Under the pieces are notes generated by a model, which had not been told where the DNA came from, did not search any database, and saw nothing but the letters and a program-made list of their open reading frames with translations. A stretch of 32,813 nt of DNA from a virus: the IMG/VR virus record IMGVR_UViG_3300042476_000579, positions 1 to 32,813 of that record; one strand, written 5' to 3'. This document shows positions 5,009 to 26,048 of this stretch, in pieces; positions within the stretch are counted from its first letter, which is position 1; every line of letters starts with the position of its first letter. A program made the position numbers and the translations under genes.

Positions 5009-5911
5009 ATGAGCTTCATGGAACTCCCGCGCTTCCCCGAGCGCATCAGCGTGCAGGCCAGCGGTGGACCGGGGTACAGCACCGATATTGTCACCGTGCG
5101 CGCTGGGTTCGAGAGCCGCAACATCAACTGGTCTCAGTCCCGCGCGCGATTTGATCTGTCGCATGCGCCCCGCACCGAGGCGCAGAAGGACGAGCTGCTT
5201 GCCTTTTTCCGCATGGCGCGCGGTGCAGCCTACGGATTCAGGTACAAAGACTGGGGGGATTTCCGCGTGACCCACAGCAACGGCGTAATGCGTGGTCTCG
5301 TCGGCACGGTGGAGCAGGGCACGGCCGGGCAGGGCTACGGCGTTGCAACTTATCAACTGTTCAAGCGGTACGGCACCGGCTCTTTCGCGGAAGACCGCCG
5401 CATTCGCAAGCCGGTGCCCAACACGGCGGCGGTCTTGCGCAACGGTGCCCCGGTCACGTTTGGCACGCTCGCCGGGCAGGCGACACTAGACAACACAACC
5501 GGCGTGCTCACGTTTATTGCTGACCAGACACGAACCATCAGCAGCCACATCGTTGGCGCTACACACCAGCTCACACTAGCCAGCGCATTTTCGCCCAACT
5601 TGGTCTCGGGCGGCCGAGTGTGGGTGACCGGCGTTACCGGCACCGCGGCCGCCGTGCTCAACAATCGCAGCCACTCGGTCACTGGCGTAAGCGGCGCCGT
5701 CGTTATTTTGGGCACTGCCACTAGCGGACTTACGGCTACTGGCGGCGAGGCCAGATTTTTTCCGCAGCCGACCGAGACGCTGACGTGGTCTGGCGAGTTT
5801 GACGTGCCGGTGCGCTTTGAGTCCGACGAAGCGCGCATCCAGATTATCGACCGCACGCAATCCGAGCTGTTATACGCATGGCAGACGCAGCTCGTCGAGG
5901 TGCGGGCATGA
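5009..5911 (+). CDS. Distal tail protein, DUF2460 family (GTA gp12-like)
   Basis: A 300-residue tail-tip protein. The N-terminus has the family pattern: MELPRFPERISVQASGGPGY, then RNINWSQSRARFDLSHAPRT and FFRMARGAAYGFRYKDWGDF. The order DUF2460, DUF2163, NlpC/P60, large tip protein is the same as in the Rhodobacter gene transfer agent and many siphophages. There the DUF2460 protein forms the distal tail ring that joins the tube to the tip. The ATG is 4 nt after the tape measure stop. Confidence 0.9.
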   Translation: MSFMELPRFPERISVQASGGPGYSTDIVTVRAGFESRNINWSQSRARFDLSHAPRTEAQKDELLAFFRMARGAAYGFRYKDWGDFRVTHSNGVMRGLVGTVEQGTAGQGYGVATYQLFKRYGTGSFAEDRRIRKPVPNTAAVLRNGAPVTFGTLAGQATLDNTTGVLTFIADQTRTISSHIVGATHQLTLASAFSPNLVSGGRVWVTGVTGTAAAVLNNRSHSVTGVSGAVVILGTATSGLTATGGEARFFPQPTETLTWSGEFDVPVRFESDEARIQIIDRTQSELLYAWQTQLVEVRA

Positions 5912-13981: not shown

Positions 13982-13994
13982 CTGGGGTTGCTGC

Positions 13995-14558
13995 CTAACT
14001 TTCGACCTCCAGTGCCGAACAAATCTCCCTAAGCTTGTCTCCTTGCTGCTTACGTGCGGCGGCCCATGCGGCGTCCCATGCAGCCCATGCGGCGCCCCCT
14101 GTAGCGGCCTGTGCGGCAGCGGCCTCTTCGGCGGCCCGTGCGGCGTCCAATGCGTCCCCTGCGGCGGCCCGTACAGCCCGTGCGGCGCCCCGTGCGGCGT
14201 CCCCTGCGGCGGCCCGTACAGCCCGTGCGGCGGCCCTCCGTGCGTCTGACAGTTCGGCGTCGCTTGCCTCCCCGTTCGCGTACCGTTCCGCAACATCTAA
14301 TGCCGCCAAGCTGCGCGGGTCTCGCATTAGATGCTGCCCCTGCCGAGCACACCATACTGCATACAGCCTGATTTCACGGTCTCGGCCTTTGACGGCCCGC
14401 AGGCACGAAAGCGCGTCGTCTAGTCCGTTGCTGTCCAGGATCGTGACAATTCGCAGCGGCTCGTCATCGGCCTTGGTCTTGCCAAGGTGAAGTAGCAGCT
14501 TGCGCCAGCCGTCAGGGCAGAGATTATGCTTTTTGATAGCTTTGAGCGTGGTAATCAT
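13995..14558 (-). CDS. Alanine-rich protein, Imm5-like putative immunity protein
   Basis: A 187-residue protein. Residues 1-90 hold a compact part with KKHNLCPDGWRKLL, LRIVTILDSNGLDDALSCLR and IRLYAVWCARQ. The rest is an Ala-rich helical region with a 15-residue repeat (ARAVRAAAGDAARGA, then ARAVRAAAGDALDAA), ending KLREICSALE. This organisation matches proteins called putative immunity (Imm5-like) that occur widely in phages. Actual immunity is unproven. GGAGG lies 7 nt before the ATG at 14558, and that ribosome-binding site is inside the end of the upstream gene. It is the last gene of the leftward operon. Confidence 0.75.
   Translation of the reverse strand: MITTLKAIKKHNLCPDGWRKLLLHLGKTKADDEPLRIVTILDSNGLDDALSCLRAVKGRDREIRLYAVWCARQGQHLMRDPRSLAALDVAERYANGEASDAELSDARRAAARAVRAAAGDAARGAARAVRAAAGDALDAARAAEEAAAAQAATGGAAWAAWDAAWAAARKQQGDKLREICSALEVES
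14152..14232 (-). repeat. 36-bp direct repeat, 45-bp period, in the Ala-rich gene
   Basis: Two identical 36-bp copies (14152-14187 and 14197-14232) encode the repeated RAVRAAAGDA segment. The exact DNA identity suggests a recent in-frame 15-codon duplication. It is coding and has no CRISPR-like spacers. Confidence 0.8.
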
Positions 14559-14779
14559 TTCCGACCTCCATCGATTGCCGCCCACAGTTCCGGAACCCGC
14601 TGCGCTGTAACCGTTAGCTCGCTCGGCATCGGGTAATGCCGCAGCAGCGCATACAGGCGGCGCAGCGCTTCTCGTGGCACGCGCACGGTATCGCCGTTGC
14701 CGTGCATGTACGGCTCTAGCCGCTGCACGGCTCGGGCCATCTCAACCACAGCGCGCGTTCTTTCGTTCGGCGTTGTCAT
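14555..14779 (-). CDS. BPSL0761-family protein
   Basis: A 74-residue protein with MTTPNERTRAVVEMARAVQR at the start and REALRRLYALLRHYPMPSEL in the middle, the signature of the BPSL0761 family found in Burkholderiales phages and prophages. No function is established. The end of the gene carries the GGAGG ribosome-binding site of the downstream gene. Its last 20 codons are duplicated as a remnant at 17721-17783. The stop overlaps the next ATG and the start overlaps the previous stop. Confidence 0.82.
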   Translation of the reverse strand: MTTPNERTRAVVEMARAVQRLEPYMHGNGDTVRVPREALRRLYALLRHYPMPSELTVTAQRVPELWAAIDGGRK

Positions 14780-15452: not shown

Positions 15453-15456
15453 TCGG

Positions 15457-15789
15457 TTAGGCCCCCGCCTTCATCACCGCGTCCATGTGCTCGCGGGCCA
15501 GTGCGCGCAGGGCCTCGCGGCGCTCCTGCACGCTCAGAATCTGCTTGATGTCTGTCGCCAGTTCGGCTGCCATGTGGTTCACCATGCGCTCGGCCAGCTC
15601 AGCCTCGATGCGCTCCACCACCCGCCGGCGCACGCGGTCGGCGTCCACTAGGCGCCACATCTCGGCCATCCACTCAGCCGGCACCTTGACGCGGCTTTCG
15701 TAGTTCGGCAGCAGCCATTGGCCGCTGCTCACATGGTGCAGCACAGCCTTCTCGGCGGCGGCTTTCACTTGCGTTTCAAAGTCGGTCAT
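15457..15789 (-). CDS. Conserved phage hypothetical protein
   Basis: A 110-residue, mostly helical, charged protein (FETQVKAAAEKAVLHH, RRRVVERIEAELAERMVNHMAAEL) with no visible enzyme motif or membrane segment. AAGGAAAG lies about 5 nt upstream of the ATG at 15789. The stop falls in GCCTAAC, a heptamer that recurs at several gene ends here. An 84-nt gap upstream contains a hairpin discussed separately. Function unknown. Confidence 0.65.
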   Translation of the reverse strand: MTDFETQVKAAAEKAVLHHVSSGQWLLPNYESRVKVPAEWMAEMWRLVDADRVRRRVVERIEAELAERMVNHMAAELATDIKQILSVQERREALRALAREHMDAVMKAGA

Positions 15790-15818
15790 CGTCTTTCCTT
15801 TGCTTCGTTCAACATGGG

Positions 15819-15886
15819 GCCTAACTACATCGGAACTTTTTGGCGCTTTGCAGCACCTTCCGAATGCTGTCTCCTAGTAGTTAAGC
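15819..15886. other. Imperfect palindrome with attC-like end boxes (weak candidate)
   Basis: GCCTAACTAC at 15819-15828 faces GTAGTTAAGC at 15877-15886 (9 of 10 pairs), with an inner CGGAA/TTCCG stem. An 11-nt one-sided gap and a poor apical stem make it less convincing than the other two sites. It lies between two leftward genes. Confidence 0.35.
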
Positions 15887-16247: not shown

Positions 16248-16738
16248 CCGATGATCAGCCGGTCGCGTTTAACGATGCGGGCGCCCTGCACGTCCTGCCC
16301 GCTCTTGATTGCCACTTTGATGCCGGTCTTGTCCGGCTCGCGCGTCGTCTTCACGCGCATAAATTGCTCGGCTAGCAGCGACTGGTCGTAGACCTCTACT
16401 GACTCGTCGCGGCCCGGATAGAGTCGCACGCGCAGCAACTTGTCATCGCTGGCAATCTCGGTGATGCCTGCCGTGCGCATACAGTCGGCCAGGTAGCTGC
16501 GCAAATGCACGGCGCGCGAGCGCATTGCCTTCACGCGCCGGCTGATCTCGTCGATGCGGTTTTCGATTGCATCGGCTTCCAGTTCGCGCTGTGCGATATA
16601 CGCGGCTACGGCCGCGCCCTTGCGCTCGACCAGCTCGCGTGCTGTGCCGTACTCGGCAGGCAGTTCGCCGGTTTCGGGGTCGATCTGATCCAGGGCGGCG
16701 GCTAATTCGGTCGCGGCCTGGTAGAGGGTCACATTCAT
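16244..16738 (-). CDS. Siphovirus Gp157-family protein
   Basis: A 164-residue protein with the Gp157 pattern: NVTLYQAATELAAALDQID and ETGELP at the start, a long central coiled helix (residues about 45-100, KGAAVAAYIAQRELEADAIEN), and a C-terminal beta part ending GARIVKRDRLIIG. The family, first noted in Streptococcus thermophilus phages for a resistance phenotype, commonly sits with recombination genes, as here with NinB and an SSB-like protein. The ATG and first codons lie inside a 36-bp sequence repeated exactly at 18032-18067. Confidence 0.9.
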   Translation of the reverse strand: MNVTLYQAATELAAALDQIDPETGELPAEYGTARELVERKGAAVAAYIAQRELEADAIENRIDEISRRVKAMRSRAVHLRSYLADCMRTAGITEIASDDKLLRVRLYPGRDESVEVYDQSLLAEQFMRVKTTREPDKTGIKVAIKSGQDVQGARIVKRDRLIIG

Positions 16739-16754
16739 GATTCAATTCCTAGTT
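16719..16754 (-). repeat. 36-bp translation-start cassette, copy 1
   Basis: Covers the ribosome-binding site (TAGGAATTGAATC before ATG), the start codon and the MNVTLY codons of the Gp157-like gene. It is identical over 36 bp to 18032-18067. Confidence 0.9.
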
Positions 16755-16938
16755 ATGGCGCAGCCCGCTTTGCCACCCGCTGCCGCCTGCGGGCAATCTT
16801 GGCGGCGGCTTCTTTCACTTCGGCGTGATCATCGGGGTGCGCATAGATCCCGCGCACTTCGGTAGTCGGCACGTCTGCCAGCTTGCGGCGCTCGCGCAAT
16901 TCGCGCTGCCGCTCGGCGTTGGTCTTGGCTGCCGTCAC
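16753..16938 (-). CDS. Small charged protein
   Basis: A 61-residue protein rich in Arg/Lys/Glu (NAERQRELRERRKLADVPTT, then HPDDHAEVKEAAAKIARRR), resembling short ribbon-helix-helix-like or DNA-associated phage proteins. I chose the GTG at 16938 because it overlaps the TGA of the upstream gene (GTGA). A TTG at 16944 is the alternative. The stop is in the GCCATAAC context just before the copy-1 start cassette. No firm function. Confidence 0.55.
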   Translation of the reverse strand: MTAAKTNAERQRELRERRKLADVPTTEVRGIYAHPDDHAEVKEAAAKIARRRQRVAKRAAP

Positions 16939-17463: not shown

Positions 17464-17520
17464 GCCATAACACGCTAGTCAACCGGCCGCCTGACGGCGC
17501 CGGTTACCAGCACGTTAGGC
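17464..17520 (+). other. Integron attC-like hairpin
   Basis: A 57-bp imperfect palindrome ending in GTTAGGC (17514-17520, the GTTRRRY box). Paired segments are 17464-17466/17518-17520, 17468-17471/17514-17517, 17474-17479/17506-17511 (one mismatch), 17481-17486/17500-17505 and 17488-17491/17496-17499. Three single bases (17467, 17480, 17487) bulge from the same strand, and there is one 2x2 unpaired spacer. One-sided extrahelical bases and a spacer are attC features. The left box GCCATAAC carries one extra base relative to RYYYAAC. It could also act as a terminator for the leftward gene ending at 17515. Confidence 0.5.
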
Positions 17521-17724
17521 ATCACCACCATCGGACAGCGGCGCCAGCTTGTCGAGCTTGCACATCCACAGGCTGCAACGCGGGCACAGTTCGCCGCTGT
17601 AGTCCCGCGGCAGTCGCTCCATTGCGCACTGCCTGAGAATGTGTGTGTACTCGCCGCAGTTGCACGGCGCGTGGCCTTGCTGGTATTGGTTGCAGTATGC
17701 GAGCCACGCAAGCGTTTCACTCAT
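17515..17724 (-). CDS. Cysteine-rich, probably zinc-binding small protein
   Basis: A 69-residue protein with seven Cys, including CNCGEY and LCPRCSLWMCK, suggesting one zinc site. GGAGG lies 7 nt before the ATG at 17724, and this ribosome-binding site belongs to the gene remnant at 17721-17783. The TAA stop lies in the GCCTAAC heptamer that forms one foot of the hairpin at 17464-17520. No family recognised. Confidence 0.6.
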   Translation of the reverse strand: MSETLAWLAYCNQYQQGHAPCNCGEYTHILRQCAMERLPRDYSGELCPRCSLWMCKLDKLAPLSDGGDA

Positions 17725-17783
17725 TTTCGACCTCCATCGATTGCCGCCCACAGTGCCGGAACCCGCTGTGCTGTAATCGTCAG
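17721..17783 (-). pseudogene. 3' remnant of a BPSL0761-family gene, reused as a leader
   Basis: This 63-bp segment matches the end of the BPSL0761-like gene (14555-14617) at 58 of 63 positions and still reads LTITAQRVPALWAAIDGGRK and a stop. Three of the five differences are synonymous. The rest of the gene is missing upstream, where the sequence changes at GCCTAAC. What remains supplies the GGAGG ribosome-binding site for the Cys-rich protein. Confidence 0.8.
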
Positions 17784-17790
17784 TTAGGCG

Positions 17791-18051
17791 CTACTTAGCG
17801 CTCGACCAGTCACAAGACACGCCACGACCGGGGCCATTGCCGAACGTCACCACGCATCGGGTGCCGTCGTCCATCGTCACGGGCACAACGTGGGTCACAT
17901 AGTTGCCTCTGGCAACAAAGTTGCGCCAGCCATTCGGCGTCTCTGCGTCCGTGCGTTCGCCTACGCTGCATCCTGCGCACGCGAGAACCAGCGCAGCAAC
18001 AACCGCGCGCCTAACCCCTCGCTCAACCGGATGGTAGAGGGTCACATTCAT
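17791..18051 (-). CDS. Small secreted protein, probable lipoprotein
   Basis: An 86-residue protein with a hydrophobic signal segment (RRAVVAALVLACAGC) ending in a lipobox-like site, though the -3 position is Cys. The mature part has VVPVTMDDGTRCVVTFGNG and GVSCDWS, two Cys likely in a disulfide. Small phage proteins with DGTRCV and a final SCxW are common and unassigned. An exported lipoprotein could alter superinfection, which is speculation. The first six residues (MNVTLY) come from the 36-bp cassette shared with Gp157. The next ten codons read through an attC-like half-site (18009-18030). Confidence 0.65.
   Translation of the reverse strand: MNVTLYHPVERGVRRAVVAALVLACAGCSVGERTDAETPNGWRNFVARGNYVTHVVPVTMDDGTRCVVTFGNGPGRGVSCDWSSAK
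18009..18030 (-). other. attC-like half-site inside the lipoprotein signal sequence
   Basis: On the plus strand this reads GCCTAACCCCTCGCTCAACC plus GG. It matches the left end of the attC-like site at 25101-25202 (read on the minus strand) at 18 of 20 positions. No partner half was found nearby, so it looks like a broken site captured in coding sequence. Confidence 0.45.
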
Positions 18052-18067
18052 GATTCAATTCCTAGTT
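18032..18067 (-). repeat. 36-bp translation-start cassette, copy 2
   Basis: Exact copy of 16719-16754. It supplies ribosome-binding site, ATG and the MNVTLY codons for the lipoprotein gene, which is otherwise unrelated to the Gp157-like gene. Confidence 0.9.
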
Positions 18068-24893: not shown

Positions 24894-25106
24894 ATGCCGA
24901 TGGCAGACACCCACATAACCATCCCGATGGCGCGGCTGGTCGAGCTTGAGACGGCCGAGCGCGAACGCGACATTCTGCGGAAGCGGTGGAAAGCAAAGGC
25001 AATTGCCGCGTGCAACAGCGCAGGTGATGGCCCGGACAACGGATGCTGCCCGACGTATTGGGAGGAAGCGCGCGAGGCCTGCATTGCGGCCATTAAGCGG
25101 GCCTAA
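24894..25106 (+). CDS. Small hypothetical protein
   Basis: A 70-residue protein with a helical, charged middle (VELETAERERDILRKRWKAK) and a Cys-rich turn (DNGCCPTYWEEAREAC). It starts 1 nt after the previous stop. ATGs at 24894 and 24900 are both possible. Its TAA stop lies in GCCTAAC, the outer foot of the attC-like site at 25101-25202. No family recognised. Confidence 0.6.
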   Translation: MPMADTHITIPMARLVELETAERERDILRKRWKAKAIAACNSAGDGPDNGCCPTYWEEAREACIAAIKRA

Positions 25107-25202
25107 CGTTCGAGCTAACCTGACCAAAGGGGCAGCAGATGAAGCATGACGAAGCCACGGCGCAGCCTGCCCCTTTGGGTCAGGGTGAGCGAGGGGTTGG
25201 GC
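25101..25202 (-). other. Integron attC-like recombination site
   Basis: Read on the minus strand the site runs from GCCCAAC (25202-25196, RYYYAAC box) to GTTAGGC (25107-25101, GTTRRRY box). Left inner segment CTCGCTCACCC and right inner segment GGTTAGCTCGAAC resemble attC L boxes. The outer boxes pair over 7 positions (one G-T). After an unpaired spacer, 25119-25123 pairs with 25180-25184 and 25124-25135 with 25167-25178. Two G bases (25179, 25185) bulge from the same strand. Length 102 bp is within the known attC range. Confidence 0.6.
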
Positions 25203-25411
25203 CGCACGCCGAGGTGGCCGAGCGCCACTTGCAGGCGATGCCGGACGGCACGCGCATGGTGCAAGCGTTTGGCACGTCGATGGCCCATGCAGCGGCGGCT
25301 CTGCAAGCGTTGGGCACGGCGGCTAAGGCGCTGGAAGAAGAGACTAAGGCGATGCTGGAAGCGCGCCGCGCTCGGCAGCCTTGGTGGCGCCGGTCATGGC
25401 GCTGCGACTGA
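25139..25411 (+). CDS. Hypothetical protein starting inside the attC-like site
   Basis: A 90-residue protein. Its first 21 codons are written over the attC-like site (QPAPLGQGERGVG comes from the right arm). The rest is a helical Ala-rich protein (QAFGTSMAHAAAALQALGTA, then LEEETKAMLEARRARQPWWR). AAAGGGG lies about 7 nt before the ATG at 25139. An internal ATG at 25238 would exclude the site but has a weak ribosome-binding site. No family recognised. Confidence 0.5.
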   Translation: MKHDEATAQPAPLGQGERGVGPHAEVAERHLQAMPDGTRMVQAFGTSMAHAAAALQALGTAAKALEEETKAMLEARRARQPWWRRSWRCD

Positions 25412-25466
25412 GCCGGGCAGTTCCCCGGCGTCCGCTTGAGCGCCTAGATGGGCGCAGGAGAAAGAA

Positions 25467-25649
25467 ATGTTAAAGATGTTGGAATCACTCACGAAGGCCG
25501 CGACTGCGGTCGTGACGGTGCCGGTCGCGGTAGTGGCCGATGTGGTGACCTTGGGCGGCGTGGTGACGAAAAGGGAAAAGCCATACACCGCCGAGGCTGT
25601 GTCCGACATGGTGCAGAACCTGAAGGACGCAAGCAGACCCGAACGTTAG
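25467..25649 (+). CDS. Small hydrophobic phage protein
   Basis: A 60-residue protein (MLKMLESLTKAATAVVTVPV, then VVADVVTLGGVVTKREKPYT and a helical end). I recognise this type from other beta-proteobacterial phages: a short amphipathic/hydrophobic segment followed by a KExPYTAEAV motif. Function unknown. AGGAG lies 5 nt upstream. The stop falls in CGAACGTTAGGC, a 12-mer also found at the end of the attC-like site at 25101. Confidence 0.7.
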   Translation: MLKMLESLTKAATAVVTVPVAVVADVVTLGGVVTKREKPYTAEAVSDMVQNLKDASRPER

Positions 25650-25669
25650 GCGTGTAGCCGGAGCGATAC

Positions 25670-26023
25670 ATGGGGCGATTGCCGCCGATGCTTTGCAAAC
25701 CGCACCGCGTGCCGGAGTGCCCGCAGTGCAAGAAGGGGAAGACGATGGCTGATGGAGAAGTGGCTGGCGACGTGCGCCAGCTGCGCCAGATGCTTGCCGA
25801 CTGCGAGCAGTACCTGAAGGAAGGCGAGACGCCGGCACAGCGCATAGAGCGTGAGCGGCGCGACACCGAAGCCGTGCTCAACCTCCTGATCCGCGAGAAG
25901 CGGAAGACGGAACGCATGCGCGAGACGTTGCAGCAGATCGCGCAGCATTTCAGCAGCGAGTGGCCCGAGCGCTGCCAGTCTAGCGTCCTGGCCGCGCGTG
26001 CGGTGCTGAATGAATACGCCTAA
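25670..26023 (+). CDS. Hypothetical coiled-coil protein
   Basis: A 117-residue protein with one CxxC near the N-terminus (VPECPQCKKGK) and a long charged helix (DVRQLRQMLADCEQYLKEGE, then QRIERERRDTEAVLNLLIRE). The ATG at 25670 has GGAG 6 nt upstream. An internal ATG at 25745, after AAGGGG, would remove the Cys part. The stop is again in a GCCTAAC heptamer. No family recognised. Confidence 0.55.
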   Translation: MGRLPPMLCKPHRVPECPQCKKGKTMADGEVAGDVRQLRQMLADCEQYLKEGETPAQRIERERRDTEAVLNLLIREKRKTERMRETLQQIAQHFSSEWPERCQSSVLAARAVLNEYA

Positions 26024-26048
26024 CTGCAAAACGTCAGGGAGGCATGGC

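Follow-up and report, generated by a model that had tools for sequence, protein, structure and literature searches.

Positions 25101–25202 of a 32,813-base virus record from IMG/VR, the whole of which is termed the window below, constitute, judging by their sequence, an integron attC site within a phage. It is highly probable that this segment is the attC of a gene cassette in the phage early operon, that the cassette gene starts inside the attC and that the cassette was moved by an integron integrase (IntI) supplied in trans. An attC-like site within an early operon had been suggested in a preliminary description of the segment. Missing from that reading were the reversal of cassettes as a rule across phages, the common presence of a start and a leader within the attC, and the IntI that some of the phages encode themselves.

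Gene calls, which were home-made throughout this analysis, give the window a lambda-like layout with structural genes, a minus-strand operon (about 13.9–20.0 kb) and a plus-strand early operon (about 20.1–27.1 kb), the two operons being separated by a Cro/YdaS-type gene. The large terminase shares 63% identity with its counterpart in Pseudomonas phages, and the host of the phage is probably a member of the Burkholderiales. Among the cultured phages searched, the early region has no close relative, and a search of these phages with the segment itself returned chance-level matches only; a search of plasmids gave no match, and an Rfam scan of the window yielded none at gathering score. The segment is situated between two small genes of the plus-strand operon (Table 1), the second of which encodes a 90-residue protein without a Pfam or PHROG match.

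The end boxes of the segment pair at all seven positions, with one G-T pair, and enclose an inner stem whose arms, GCT-AACCTGA-CCAAAGGGG and GCTCACCCTGACCCAAAGGGG, form 18 pairs with one mismatch and two extra bases, both of which are located on the right arm of the plus strand; the spacer is short. The segment thus displays pairing RYYYAAC and GTTRRRY boxes, an L''/L' inner stem with between one and three one-sided unpaired bases and an unpaired spacer, as is characteristic of attC sites. The TAA of the first box (25104–25106) is the stop codon of the upstream gene, whereas the ATG of the downstream gene (25139) lies in the loop, preceded by AAAGGGG, a sequence no more than Shine-Dalgarno-like. 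The boxes, the long stem with its one-sided bases and the enclosed stop and start had all been described beforehand and were found as described. The expected cassette junction follows position 25106 (GCCTAA↓C, the arrow marking the cut), and the same junction bounds insertions in relatives of the window. In an attC-geometry scan of the window the site scores 16.0, while none of 30 dinucleotide shuffles of the whole window reached at least 14 and only 0.03 candidates per window reached 12. Single-strand DNA folding of the site gives z-scores of -3.1 for the plus and -2.0 for the minus strand.

Table 1. Features of the attC locus and of other cassette-related elements in the window (CM, covariance model).
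Feature	Position	Strand	Evidence or remark
attC site	25101..25202	- (canonical top strand)	CM R1 49.4 bits, E 4.8e-11, model 1-64; arm scan 16.0
GCCTAAC, reverse complement of the cleaved R' box GTTAGGC	25101..25107	+	sequence
Inner stem, left arm, with Shine-Dalgarno-like AAAGGGG (25126-25132)	25120..25135	+	
Inner stem, right arm	25167..25183	+	
GTTGGGC, reverse complement of the R'' box	25196..25202	+	in-frame read-through as ..GGG TTG GGC..
Upstream small gene	24900..25106	+	ends GCC TAA at the cassette junction
90-aa cassette gene	25139..25411	+	first 21 codons within the attC, leader MKHDEATAQPAPLGQGERGVG
Probable decayed right arm of another attC (..GTCCGCTTGAGCGCCTAGATGGGC)	25412..25455	+	homology breaks
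GTTAGGC remnant (R'' side), 5' of the cassette gene 25670-26023	25645..25651	+	
117-aa cassette gene	25670..26023	+	ends GCC TAA at the box
GCCTAAC junction	26018..26024	+	empty in the window and L006; filled by a 531-bp attC+gene unit in L003/L004/L005
Second attC, imperfect right box	17464..17520	+ canonical, local genes on -	CM R1 29.0 bits, E 3e-5
Cassette-derived gene 15457-15789	15456..15825	-	between GTTAGGC (15819-15825 on -) and GCCTAAC (15456-15462 on -)
Cassette-derived gene 17791-18051	17783..18051	-	attC right end CCGGTTGAGCGAGGGGTTAGGC (box 18009-18015), end box GCCTAAC (17783-17789 on -)

A covariance model built for this analysis from 18 attC sites of bacterial integrons, none of them from phages, matches the minus strand from its first to its last position with exactly the borders 25101–25202 in the default run (Table 1), which upholds the attC reading. 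With filters switched off, the match is confined to 25101–25155 (13.4 bits), a truncation that we think reflects the hit-length limit of that mode and that remains a caveat; since that run shortened the site, the default run was preferred.

Bacterial counterparts were sought in genome contigs with CGTTCGAGCTAACC. Rubrivivax rivuli contains some twenty sites of the form GCCTAACGTTCGAGCTAACCCCGACC...GGTCGGGGGCTGAGCGAGGGGTTAGGC, to which the ends of the window site, GCCTAACGTTCGAGCTAACCTGACC...GGTCAGGGTGAGCGAGGGGTTGGGC, correspond nearly letter for letter. The right end ..GGTTAGCTCGAACGTTAGGC is the same in R. rivuli, in agreement with the preliminary remark that the segment ends much like a usual attC. 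IntI above the family cut-off is present in R. rivuli, Ideonella alba, Rubrivivax sp. A210 and two metagenome-assembled genomes. Burkholderiales integrons had been named as the place to look for the same genes beside attC sites, and sites with the same ends do occur there alongside intact IntI: the R. rivuli IntI (8.7e-133) shares a 59-kb contig with one array and runs away from it. This direction identifies the strand that ends in GGTTAGCTCGAACGTTAGGC as the canonical top strand, which corresponds to the minus strand of the window, the strand also scored by the covariance model. The site is accordingly oriented opposite to the surrounding genes, as had been proposed. Moreover, the extrahelical bases agree, being situated on the left arm along the R. 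rivuli array and on the right arm along the phage genes; orientation was thus read from the unpaired bases and the model strand, both learned from integrons. With the minus strand as canonical top strand, the recombinogenic bottom strand would be the plus, that is the coding, strand.

Phages that are 88–98% identical to the window differ at this locus. Where the window reads AATACGCCTAACTGCAAAACGTCAGG at 26018–26024, and L006 is identical, the matching junction in L003, L004 and L005 reads AATACGCCTAA↓CGCAGAGTTAACCGG, and L003 runs on to CATGCTGCCTAA↓CTGCAAGATGTCAGG. The L003 insert of 531 bp consists of an attC (5465–5590, scan score 12.6) and an ORF ending GCC TAA; in all three phages both ends of the insert lie exactly at GCCTAA↓C, with one extra copy of the 7-base box. 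In L009 and L010 another attC-plus-gene unit between GCCTAA↓C borders replaces two genes, L010 representing a third allele. Judged by their sequences, alleles bounded in this way are the footprint expected from integrase-made cassette exchange, and they supply the boundary shared among related phages on which the preliminary description had made its reading depend. At L009 4889–4972 and L010 500–583, the first 84 bases of the equivalent of window 24900–25106 are also tandemly duplicated, with differing downstream parts.

Other breakpoints lie elsewhere. The body of the 90-residue gene shows 99% DNA identity to a gene that follows a different attC in L002; the stretch common to both begins at the uncut side of the attC (25208), which indicates some shuffling by other recombination; the upstream gene is likewise swapped, at 24981. 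In L002 the window body has a different leader, which in turn is found in front of another body in L104; this mixing of leaders and bodies is bordered at the uncut box and needs some other recombination as well. Few clean events emerged when breakpoints were surveyed across all viral loci, since the shared stretches mostly come from near-identical phages or end in conserved attC ends; these ends also swamped a short-flank search for pairs of empty and occupied junctions.

Further boxes are found throughout the window. Homology to L002 and to L003/L006 breaks at 25436–25438, and the right end of the cassette of the 25139 gene is decayed, with its stop TGA at 25409–25411 and no GCCTAAC before 25467. 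A full attC occupies the place of the GTTAGGC remnant (25645–25651) in L016 and L017. At 25640, CGAACGTTAGGC mirrors the left end of the site; it was initially read as the partner in a large inverted repeat, but is more likely the remnant right box of the next cassette. The second attC (17464–17520) reaches E 3.6e-6 with covariance filters off; it lies 7.6 kb from the site at 25101 and in the other operon, with remnant boxes between genes. The units at 15456–15825 and 17783–18051 are 95% identical to a cassette in L082 and, over 250 bp, 98% identical to a cassette in L062, respectively.

The minus-strand operon also shows repeated gene starts. A common 5' stretch, aactaggaattgaatcATGAATGTGACCCTCTACCA, begins two unrelated genes (16700–16765 and 18031–18065, minus strand); the gene at one of the copies is a cassette body minus the left half of the attC and resembles a cassette gene onto which a start module was copied. 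A second repeated leader, gtgggcggcaatcgatggaggtcg.aaATGA, stands before two different genes (14555–14595 and 17720–17760, minus strand), and an Ala/Arg-rich gene with short internal repeats (13995–14558, minus strand) ends at a GTTAGGC box (13993–13999).

The first 18 bases of the site are present in 97 viral stretches, and 175 different attC sites were gathered from viral stretches with these bases and from relatives of the window. Gene direction in the viral set is opposite to that of the canonical attC in 277 cases and the same in 23, compared with 4 and 60, respectively, in bacterial arrays; the pattern used to find the viral sites favours neither gene direction, and long antisense ORF calls that extend over whole cassettes account for most of the 23. 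The downstream gene is called from a start within the attC in 59 of 138 cases (55 of them ATG), and in 65 of 139 the stop codon of the upstream gene is precisely the TAA of this box that is cut. Independently of gene calls, a Shine-Dalgarno sequence with an ATG occurs on the coding strand of 65 of the 107 long viral sites but on the other strand of only 2; the corresponding figures are 10/107 for shuffled viral sites and 2/68 and 4/68 for bacterial sites. The attC thus encodes a leader of 16–29 residues on many cassette proteins. Translation across GTTRGGC yields ..GLG or ..GVR, and the frame in which a TAG would arise is never used. In the hairpins, the unpaired fraction amounts to 0.59 for the Shine-Dalgarno sequence and 0.65 for the ATG versus 0.40 for the rest, and pairing between a site's own arms far exceeds that between swapped arms (15.3 vs 9.3). 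With its genes running opposite to the attC, the ATG in the attC and the upstream TAA in the box, the window fits the phage-type reversed cassette.

A Terminase_6N match, the only terminase type tested, was obtained for 18 of 49 array-bearing viral records; many of the array contigs are fragments, and IMG/VR may include some contigs that are not from phages. The attC scan, tuned to the present sites, did not recover the published TJE1 and M16-3 sites and is therefore not a general attC finder. Comparison of ten cassette genes with Pfam and PHROGs yielded a function for hardly any of them, the exceptions being one DNA methyltransferase and one winged-helix protein. A cassette with its start in the attC encodes a DNA methyltransferase in L078 (405–1016, minus strand; PHROG 954, E 2e-68); methyltransferases have been reported in other phage cassettes (PMC9892861).

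The window record contains no match to TIGR02249 and in this respect falls short of a complete integron; no IntI was found in its sampled relatives either. Among the larger array-bearing viral records, 2 of 49 hold an IntI above cut-off, and a scan with these two proteins located 27 viral loci with such genes. Wherever attC sites are detectable at these loci, all lie 5' of intI and, as is usual, point away from it. In most of those loci the cassette genes are co-directional with intI, so that the array can be read from the phage operon; in L261 and L262 a single long overlapping minus-strand ORF call obscures this co-direction. The neighbour of intI appears from sequence motifs to be a tyrosine recombinase in L253 and a large serine recombinase in L254 (1–1326, minus strand). 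One clade (100/99), next to the Rubrivivax/Ideonella group, comprises sixteen phage IntI; the remainder fall elsewhere in the tree, several on long branches. We also considered whether the viral contigs with IntI might simply be ordinary bacterial integrons, but set this aside in view of the gene order, the phage-type tyrosine or serine recombinase beside intI and the IntI clade. In the viral contigs L278, L280, L281 and L282, the IntI-like genes are divergent, with long branches that fall outside the main phage clade, and our scan found no attC near them.

There is a somewhat better than even chance that phages of the Burkholderiales and relatives own a distinct integron lineage. This lineage would be characterized by a phage IntI clade at the end of the early operon, an attC array upstream of it and cassettes reversed to read toward intI from a phage promoter. 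Its attC would serve as a portable start with an exchangeable leader, and its private cassette pool would extend across unrelated phages, including those without intI such as the phage of the window.

For the site at 25101–25202, the main competing account is that the attC arrived with a cassette and is now a fossil serving as a translation hairpin, recombination having ended. The lack of IntI in the window record, the decay of the neighbouring boxes and of the right end, and an R'' box reading GTTGGGC instead of GTTAGGC fit such a history; nonetheless it is unlikely, if far from negligible, as the R' box, arms and unpaired bases are intact and score 49 bits with the covariance model, sister phages hold several alleles at nearby boxes, and GTTGGGC is common among viral sites. 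Somewhat more doubtful still is that the alleles arose without integrase, by ordinary homologous or illegitimate recombination between repeated attC ends. The gene body shared with L002, with its different attC and its break at the uncut side, and the swap at 24981 are of the kind this would produce. The insert in L003–L005, by comparison, is a whole attC-plus-gene unit with both ends at GCCTAA↓C and one extra 7-base box, and IntI is encoded by some phages of this type and by 119 of 300 sampled genomes of the order of R. rivuli.

A phage regulatory RNA hairpin that hides the downstream ribosome binding site and merely resembles an attC is very improbable. Although the predicted RNA fold (MFE -49.5 kcal/mol) does pair AAAGGGG, the Shine-Dalgarno sequence is less paired than the rest of the site in 52 of 65 viral sites, and such a hairpin would account neither for the GCCTAAC/GTTRGGC boxes and the one-sided unpaired bases nor for the match to bacterial attC sites and the insertions at boxes. 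A chance palindrome can practically be dismissed: the shuffles, the covariance-model E-value and the recurrence of the first 18 bases in viral stretches all oppose it, and the matches to integron attC sites already refute it.

The reading of the segment as a cassette attC implies the following mode of action. Along the phage genes, the mobile unit would comprise C, the remainder of the attC, the gene body and a terminal GCCTAA, so that the attC comes first and the gene ends with its TAA on the cut site. Both the ribosome binding site and the start codon are situated in the variable loop of the attC, and the first 21 codons are attC sequence. IntI, supplied in trans by the host itself or by a phage encoding it, whether co-infecting or resident, would cut the folded coding strand at GCCTAA↓C; from integron biology, this strand could fold when displaced by transcription or replication, and IntI would presumably have acted in this way on the window site itself. 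Whole genes could then be inserted or removed with their neighbours unbroken, and inserted genes would be transcribed from the phage early promoter. The position of the start in the loop may avoid the ribosome block known for attC hairpins and may render each inserted gene self-sufficient for translation, and the cassettes presumably benefit the phage.

Such a design would offer phages a concrete route to gain or lose single small accessory genes in the early operon without disrupting adjacent genes, and it predicts the strand, the cut and the start codon used. Small genes at these boxes are candidates for functions in host take-over or counter-defence and can now be found via their attC. A recombination site would here double as protein-coding sequence and translation start, in departure from the working assumption of integron biology that the attC lies at the 3' end of a cassette gene.

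Phage-borne integrons and CALINs, with attC sites, cassettes and sometimes IntI, were described by Qi et al. in 2023, and IntI1 recombined five of six tested phage attC sites (PMC9892861). Their arrays have the typical layout except in P12002L, where the attC directions diverge, and in one myovirus, where more than one ORF separates attC sites; the main text of that report mentions neither starts in attC nor systematic reversal (PMC9892861). The presence of attC, cassettes and IntI in phages is already published; of reversed cassettes whose starts lie within the attC we found no description in the literature searched, a coverage with few subscription journals or preprints.

The chromosomal integrons of Burkholderiales such as R. 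rivuli and its relatives share with the phage sites the boxes, arms, unpaired bases and near-identical ends, and one covariance model describes both. In bacterial cassettes, however, genes follow the canonical attC direction (60:4), starts lie outside the attC and sites are mostly 120–139 nt long, whereas phage cassettes have reversed genes, often a start in the attC, and sites of 50–129 nt. In the Shewanella phage M16-3 of Qi et al., the annotated integron integrase diverges from its neighbours, in contrast to the co-directional intI and cassettes observed here. An influence of the attC hairpin on translation, by ribosome block, has been reported (Jacquier 2009, as cited in PMC8876359), and a start signal carried by recombination-site DNA is known from ORF-11 of attI1 (reviewed in PMC8876359). 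ORF-11 is a separate short ORF in attI; in the phage cassettes, the cassette gene's own start lies in the attC and the protein keeps the attC-coded leader.
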